Shown: piece after piece, positions 19,801 through 22,800 of the stretch
Numbering within the stretch: position 1 is the first letter of the stretch
Layout of the letters: the number at the start of each line of letters is the position of its first letter
DNA from: a virus
IMG/VR virus record: IMGVR_UViG_3300029319_000482
Coordinates: 1 to 24,739 of that record
Reading direction: 5' to 3' (one strand)
DNA: 24,739 nucleotides
Notes under the pieces: model-generated
What the model was told of the DNA's origin: nothing
Databases searched by the model: none
What the model saw: the letters and a program-made list of their open reading frames with translations, nothing else
Made by a program: the position numbers and the translations under genes

Positions 19801-22800
19801 CATAAGAGACAGATAATTCTCTCTCGTAACTGGCATTCCCACTGAATTGAGGTATTGTATCAGAGGGTCTTGCCCAACTTGGTTCCGTAAATCCTGCTGG
19901 GGTAACATTTAATATCTCCTGTCTTGTGTCTTCTATTGATAATCCGCCATCAACATAGGTGTCCCAAATACTATTTATTTTTTCTACATTTTGTTTTTGT
20001 TGTTTAAATGTATCTGGAAATAAATCTCTTACAGCTTCCCATGTAATAGATTGCATTTGTCTTGGCAGTATTCCTCTTTGTTCTGCGGCCCGTGTAAAGG
20101 CATCTTGTATTAATCCATACATTCCTCTTACACCTGAAACAGATGAACTTGGTATTATACCATAAATTTTTGATCTTCCTGCAACGGAATACACACCAAA
20201 ATTATGGTCTACTTCTACTGATTTACCACTTAAAGGCTTTAAGAAAGCTACAGATACAGCATGTGTATCTATTGTAGTATGACCTTCAGGTGACATAGGT
20301 GTTATCATGTTATTAAAAAAACTTCTAACCTTATGCCTGTCACCAAGAGAAATAGATATTTGTTGCAATGATTGATCAGCTGATGCATCCATCGCTTCAA
20401 TAGCGCTTGATATTTCTTTATTAGATCCCCATCCCGTACCTTTTGGACTGCCATCTTTTTTTCTTGCATAATCTAAATACTCACCTTCTGGTGTAATAAT
20501 TCTATGCCCACGATCATTATATGTTTCATCAAATATTCTAATCCACATTGCCTTATGTACAGAATGTTTTAAACTATCTAAACTTGTAGAGTTTCTGTTT
20601 GGATTGCTTATAAAGTCTAATGCAGGTTTAAATATAGGTTTGCCATATATTTCTAGTGCAGTCTTCATCATCTCTGGTGTAAACTGTTTATCTGCATGAT
20701 TTCTAGATATATCCAGCACACGCTCTGCCAAAGATACATTCATAAACCAATCTGTTTGTGGTGATTGACTAGCTATAACCGCAGCCACTACCTCTGGCCT
20801 ATAATTATATTCTTTTGAAAGTCTATCTACTATTGTTCTAGCACCGTCATACCACTTGGATGATCTTTCTCTTATATCTGGATCTATAGAGTCATGAACA
20901 AATAAAATATTGTTTGTCATTGCTTGTATATGATCTTCTATAATCTCATCATTTGAAAAGTTTACGTAAAGTTTTGAGTTGCCAGATAGATTATACCCTT
21001 TTATTAAATTAGCTGCTTTCTCTGCTAACACAGGGTCACTCTTTAATACTTCGCCATTAATGAACAATAATTCTACAGATGGATCGCTAACTCTTTGCTT
21101 TGCTGTGGGAAATCTAGTGCTTACTGTATGTTCTTGACCAATAGCCATAACACGAGATCTCATTTGTCTATTAGCATACTGACCACGTTTTTGATTAACT
21201 GAGTCTTTATATGCCTGATCAAACTTCTTAGCTTGATATGTTTCTGGTATTTTTAACTCATAAAACATTGCAGCCATTATGCCTCTGGTCGGATGATCAA
21301 TAAAATAACCAGTTGCACCCAATTCTTTTATCATTCTTTCTTTTGCAGTTGTTATATAGGCAACTCTATCAGCTGAAGTTGTCAAATCAGGCCTTTCTCT
21401 ATTTAGCTCTATATTTGCCGCACTATTAAACTTTCTTTCATCTTTTATCCAGTCATACATACCTTCAAATGGGACATCTATCTCATAAACATTATCACCC
21501 AAACCACCTTCAGGATTATATCCATTTGGATCTTCTATATTTACTGCATAGTAACTACGTGCCGGAAAGCCCGGAAATATTCTTCTTCTTTCATCACCAC
21601 GTATATTAGGATTTGATCTTTGTTGTTCCGGGTCTATGCTTTGCAGGCCCTCTATAGGAGAGAAATGTGTTAGCTTGACTGTCCTTTGCGGAGATAACTC
21701 AGGTTTCCTCCCTTTTTCTGGTTGTTGAGTCTGGCCTCGTACCTCTGCCCGTCTTCTTCCATCTCCTTCAACTCCTCGTCTGTCGGTTGTAACATCTCCT
21801 GTCTCACCAAGTCGTTCATCTGCTCCAATAATTCTTTCATCTGTTACTCCTTCTATATTTTTAGCTAACCCTTCACTTTGAACAAAATCTGATAATATAG
21901 TTATCTTTTGATCAGCGTAAATTGTTTCTTCTGCTTTATTGGTACTGTTTCTATTTAAATCTCCAACTTTATCACTATAGTTCACCCAAGAATTTTGTCC
22001 TCTTGTTTCTGTAGTCATTGCTAAAGCTGCTAATGGACTGTACATACGTGAATGTGCCTGCCAAGCATTTTCTTCTCCTCTGGCAGTAAATGTAGCGCCT
22101 TCTAAAGCATGACCAAAATAATCATGAACTATTCTAAATAAATCATTATATCTTACATTTCTTCCTTCTATTATTTCACCTGTTTTTTGCAATAAAGGAT
22201 TTTCATCTACATCTTGTTGTGTTATTGATTCACTACCAAAACCATCGTCTGTAGCAAATACCCACATATGATTATTATCTCTAATGTCCTCTAACAAATC
22301 TCTTGATCCTTTTGGATAGGGATTAGCTTGATCAGGCTTGATAAATTCAATCTTAATTCCTGTTTCTTCAATAAACTTCCATTGAACAAATGTTTCATCT
22401 GCCATAGCTTTATAAGCTTTAATCACCTCTGGGTTACCCGGATCATGCTTTGCTTCATCAAAGTCTTTTGCTATTCTTCTTGCTAAATCTTCATTAACTT
22501 GAACATAGCTATCTGGTCGCACATTAGGCATACCTATTGATGCCAAATACTTTGCTTTTACTTGATGCGCTATAGGCAAAGGTCCCACAGAACCTCTGTG
22601 TAAATTAGGCAATCTTTCTATAATTATGCGAGATTTTTTTGTTTCTTGATTTTCTAAAAATCGTGTAGCTTTTTCTATAGCCTCTTTTCTGTTATCAGCA
22701 TAACGCAAAGAAGGAAATGCTGAAGTATTTTCCGTTCCATCTGGCTCTAAAATCATACTTCCGTCAGATGTACTTCTGAAAAAACCTCCATCTATGTCAT

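Follow-up and report, generated by a model that had tools for sequence, protein, structure and literature searches.

Inside the giant gene that fills the last third of a 24.7-kb viral contig (hereafter the window, 24,739 nucleotides), we found a second reading frame of 56 codons, here called n56, which had escaped annotation and which, judging from how the sequence has changed among relatives, is very probably a real protein-coding gene. It very likely arose by a single overprinting event in the linker joining two parts of the giant protein that fold as separate domains, in one clade of marine phages, and was kept thereafter.

The giant gene and its domains

The host gene lies on the minus strand (24481 to 16805) and encodes a polyvalent/ejection-type protein of 2558 aa, counted from the first GTG at position 24481, with matches to the LPD38 (E value of 2e-29) and DUF7178 (E value of 1e-25) domains. 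Its reading frame is stop-free up to the end of the contig (16805 to 24739, minus strand), so that this GTG may not be the true start and the gene may begin further upstream. The open frames of its relatives have 2800 to 2900 codons. In one of them (G002), the giant gene closes a block of virion genes on the minus strand, with a DNA ejection family protein encoded two genes upstream. The gene therefore unites several LPD/effector domains in a single giant ORF located near virion genes and is of the type described as phage polyvalent proteins (Iyer et al. 2017, PMC5512222), which are giant and multidomain, carry LPD and ART-like domains, and are encoded beside virion/ejection genes.

Two domains of the giant frame flank n56. 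Directly upstream lies an LPD-type globular domain (22801 to 21842, minus strand), found at 544 loci, and directly downstream an ART-like domain (21697 to 21128, minus strand), recognized from an AF2 model (pLDDT of 80, pTM of 0.75) and its fold matches. These were largely RES/diphtheria-type ADP-ribosyltransferases and were modest (best Z score of 6.6, with no Foldseek match at an E value of 0.001). Polyvalent ARTs have a histidine in strand 1 and a tyrosine in strand 2 (PMC5512222, section 9); in the ART-like domain, H11 and Y49 were invariant in 17 sequences, with strands predicted at residues 6 to 13 and 48 to 52. The first strand (TVKLTHFS) is encoded by bases that also make up the 3' end of n56. 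The second-ranked structural match of the domain was to residues 1418 to 1607 of the cyanophage A4 pre-ejectosome protein (9k3a_B; Z score of 5.4), a model-based similarity which suggests that giant ejection proteins may share an ART-like domain. Four relatives (L075, L076, L079, and L144) have a reading frame that stops shortly past the LPD-type domain, giving a shorter protein to which no further domains are fused.

A 56-codon frame with its own start signals

The coding sequence of n56 (MKELLEQMNDLVRQEMLQPTDEELKEMEEDGQRYEARLNNQKKGGNLSYLRKGQSS) occupies positions 21840 to 21673 of the minus strand, followed by a TAA stop at 21672 to 21670, and is nested wholly within the giant ORF in the +1 frame. 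A Shine-Dalgarno site, AAGGAG (21852 to 21847, minus strand), is found 6 nucleotides before the ATG, the complete start context being AAGGAG-TAACAG-ATG. A preliminary description, made by reading the sequence, had pointed to precisely this arrangement, and the coordinates, strand, frame, and length all proved correct. It had also described the overlapping stretch of the giant protein as a low-complexity linker, which agrees with a translation rich in Arg, Gly, and Glu, and the local composition as shifted toward higher GC. The latter was confirmed as well, with 47.4% GC in the n56 region versus 35.4% in the giant gene, a value equaled by just 1.3% of 171-nucleotide windows. The high GC content sits mainly at the third codon positions of the small frame, which are the first positions of the giant frame. 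No stable or notable structure was detected in the start region, and a promoter scan around n56 gave no clear excess over shuffled sequences. The product is predicted to be a small acidic protein with two helices (residues 2 to 15 and 21 to 45), T20 standing just before the second.

To assess how often such a frame may appear by chance, the giant gene was subjected to 2000 synonymous-codon shuffles. A start codon followed by 56 open codons at the n56 site was obtained in 5 of the 2000, and an ATG ORF of at least 56 aa preceded by an SD-like site, in either the +1 or +2 frame and anywhere in the giant gene, in 13 of the 2000. The real gene holds two SD-preceded nested ORFs of that size, n56 and another of 62 aa. 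Nevertheless, the conservation of n56 among relatives is far stronger evidence than this test.

Conservation among relatives

All 44 IMG/VR contigs (metagenomic assemblies) that we found of the clade of the giant gene carry n56, with its place and frame unchanged, at lengths of 54 to 59 aa and with 27 distinct peptides; one contig is truncated at its edge. This set was gathered in successive searches. The full 56 aa were recovered at 70 to 100% identity in 20 contigs; the upstream domain of the giant protein led to 22 more, carrying versions of 54 to 59 aa in the same frame and place; and searches with divergent members added the last 2, one of them the contig cut at its edge. All listed clade members have a GGAG before the start codon, which is either ATG or GTG, and in many of them a small-frame stop falls within 6 nucleotides upstream of that start. 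A frameshift fusion of the giant frame with n56 was set aside on account of these stops. Four residues (E15, T20, E26, and R37) are fixed or nearly so even where peptide identity has dropped to 25%. The preliminary description had named the disruption of the small frame in relatives that preserve the giant frame as evidence against a gene, and no broken copy was found in the clade.

The distribution of the family is narrow. An HMM of n56 run over all fetched loci detected no copy outside the clade and none as a stand-alone gene, and the ten longer contigs searched had one copy each and none elsewhere. A scan of genome contigs with the upstream domain returned distant relatives only (48% or less). 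Long +1 ORFs do exist at the same domain boundary in four outgroups (L126, L129, L134, and L148), and were not counted, given that they extend into the ART region and gave no match with the HMM of n56. No homologues were detected in collections of phages and plasmids, where the search otherwise gave only matches with an E value of 9, and a nucleotide search of the n56 region in phages found nothing. Comparisons with PHROGs, Pfam, NCBIfam, PDB sequences, and BFVD structures produced weak matches only, and PADLOC a single weak one, all of which were treated as chance.

Selection on the small frame

Since each base of the region belongs to two codons, sites were classified by what a change does in each of the two frames (dNN/dNS and dNN/dSN), following the check recommended in the preliminary description. 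Between subclades, the small frame gave dNN/dNS values of 0.17 to 0.31, indicative of purifying selection, and the giant frame was near neutral over the same bases (dNN/dSN of 1.14 for the window versus group B). Within the very close group B, dNN/dNS was 0.95, a value based on about one difference per pair, too few counts to show selection. Between the group of the window and L001 to L003, all 4 to 5 differences in n56 fall at position 3 of the small frame, that is, position 1 of the giant frame.

Amino acid identities follow the same pattern. In the nearer subclades, identity is 70 to 77% for the small protein and only 49 to 58% for the giant frame across the n56 region, despite flanks of 79 to 85% and 73 to 74%; in the comparison of the window with L006, for instance, the figures are 75% for the small protein, 51% for the giant frame, and 84 and 74% for the flanks. 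The last 12 codons of n56 lie over the beginning of the ART-like domain, a part of the giant protein that is itself conserved, and the identity of these C-terminal residues is therefore not independent evidence. The first 44 residues alone are still 64 to 73% identical in these subclades. When the region was evolved in simulation to the observed divergence under the constraint of the giant frame alone (12,000 runs), 0 of 12,000 reached 70% identity of the small protein, and the start and frame stayed open in 5 to 10% of them.

Scanned along its full length, the giant gene was found to change fastest at position 3 almost everywhere, with the strongest reversals in n56 and the 62-aa ORF. At n56, the suppression of changes at giant position 3 gave Fisher P values of 6e-6 to 2.6e-5, and 1 of 10 4-fold sites had changed; other sliding windows in which position 3 fell below position 1 numbered 14 to 36 of about 2400. 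Judged on these comparisons, n56 appears to be a nested overprinted gene, under more purifying selection than the host frame by itself imposes and with initiation signals of its own. The central proposal of the preliminary description, an overprinted gene with its own ribosome site, is thus upheld by a frame that is open throughout the clade, by the purifying selection on it, by the near-neutral change of the giant frame, and by the retention of the SD site and start codon.

The other reversal corresponds to an ORF of 62 codons, n62 (19908 to 19720, minus strand; MLPQQDLRNQVGQDPLIQYLNSVGMPVTRENYLSLMFPEGLPEMTSEVEQMLPENLRLDAQE), also in the +1 frame to the giant gene and with an SD-like GGAG upstream. 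Suppression at position 3 of the giant frame is strong here too. Members of the clade conserve n62, as does L134, which is devoid of n56; the two ORFs appear to be conserved independently of each other.

A by-product of the GA-rich, Arg/Gly-rich linker, neither translated nor selected, was considered as an explanation for n56. GA-rich sequence does tend toward acidic helical ORFs, and when the SD site is ignored, 16% of the codon shuffles have some +1 or +2 ATG ORF of at least 56 aa in the giant gene. However, such a frame would hardly be kept in 44 contigs with its SD site, be more conserved than the giant frame, show the low small-frame ratios given above, and exceed what every simulated run attained. 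On the strength of this frame-specific substitution pattern, we regard a chance open frame as refuted.

Probable origin by overprinting

In a tree built on the upstream domain of the giant frame, the carriers of n56 all fall to one side of a branch supported at 100/100, and a single change is needed to explain their distribution. In the outgroups that have the ART-like domain, an in-frame linker of 20 to 54 aa, without n56, connects it to the LPD-type domain, and in the n56 clade the linker measures 69 to 81 aa. Given that the shorter linkers of the outgroups already join both domains, n56 was probably added later by overprinting, and a linker that was lengthened and overprinted once is the most economical reading of these data. 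The reverse order, in which n56 began as a normal gene flanked by two others and the giant frame grew across it afterward, would fit the near-neutral evolution of the giant linker over n56, as a new read-through segment would evolve in this way. We consider it improbable, because all the outgroups found with the ART-like domain already have it fused to the LPD-type domain by a shorter linker that lacks n56.

Possible roles of the n56 product

Ribosomes would initiate on the mRNA of the giant gene at the unstructured AAGGAG-N6-ATG, and a small, acidic, two-helix protein would be made alongside the giant protein, presumably late, when the latter is synthesized. It may then serve the giant protein as an accessory partner, most likely either by binding the adjacent ART-like domain or by helping this domain to fold and be packaged so that it stays inactive until ejection. 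ART toxins make up much of the list of best structural matches for the ART-like domain, and several of them pair with small antitoxins (MbcT, ParT, and RES). In the whole clade, n56 is encoded inside the giant gene, beside this domain. From these observations, binding to the giant protein is the role that we favor, and we give n56 close to an even chance of being some kind of partner of that protein. The ART-like domain is the most attractive target, although a specific ART inhibitor or chaperone is a tentative proposal and on balance unlikely. The full scenario, in which a marine phage clade overprints the inhibitor or chaperone of an injected ART-like effector domain within the giant gene of the effector itself, is distinctly unlikely.

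Many small phage proteins are independent effectors, and n56 is tied to the ART-like domain by position alone; it could instead act on its own as a late effector, a host-takeover protein, or a minor virion component, for which the location would only provide cheap co-expression. This is a serious contender, if short of an even prospect, and the fact that n56 was never seen elsewhere in the longer contigs, nor as a stand-alone gene at any locus, is mildly unexpected for a mobile effector. The conserved positions of the start and stop at a domain boundary could also suggest a regulatory leader, whose translation (by slowing, coupling, or re-initiation for domain folding) would matter instead of the peptide sequence. 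We regard this as very improbable, considering that the amino acids are under purifying selection, with the four nearly invariant residues persisting in the most divergent copies, and that no restart codon of the giant frame is evident just after the n56 stop.

Comparison with known systems and implications

Phages are known to carry nested overprinted genes: embedded genes of the Rz/Rz1 spanin type have been described in double-stranded DNA phages (PMC6139136; overprinting reviewed in PMC8227390). Like them, n56 encodes a small protein, is read in a different frame from the longer phage gene that contains it, and has its own start site. Unlike the spanins, it lacks a hydrophobic membrane segment or a lipobox-like Cys, its host is the gene of a giant virion-type protein instead of a lysis gene, and it belongs to an orphan family confined to one clade. 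The juxtaposition of an ART-like domain with a small helical protein recalls the RES/ART toxin-antitoxin pairs (MbcT-MbcA, ParT-ParS, and Xre-RES), but n56 has no sequence match to any solved antitoxin and is nested, not adjacent. A text search of the work on polyvalent proteins (PMC5512222) found no mention of nested overlapping genes, and no family of nested genes inside polyvalent-protein genes was found in the literature and libraries searched.

Because gene callers discard nested ORFs, small conserved proteins may lie hidden in giant phage genes. In the giant gene studied here, the distribution of substitutions over codon positions was by itself enough to make two independent nested genes visible, and other polyvalent-protein genes could be examined in the same way. 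If n56 does control the neighboring effector domain, this would help to explain how a potentially toxic virion cargo can be built safely. Under the inhibitor or chaperone reading, if true, the effector and its control protein would be inseparable, and together with the second nested gene this would amount to a general design for the control of polyvalent proteins.
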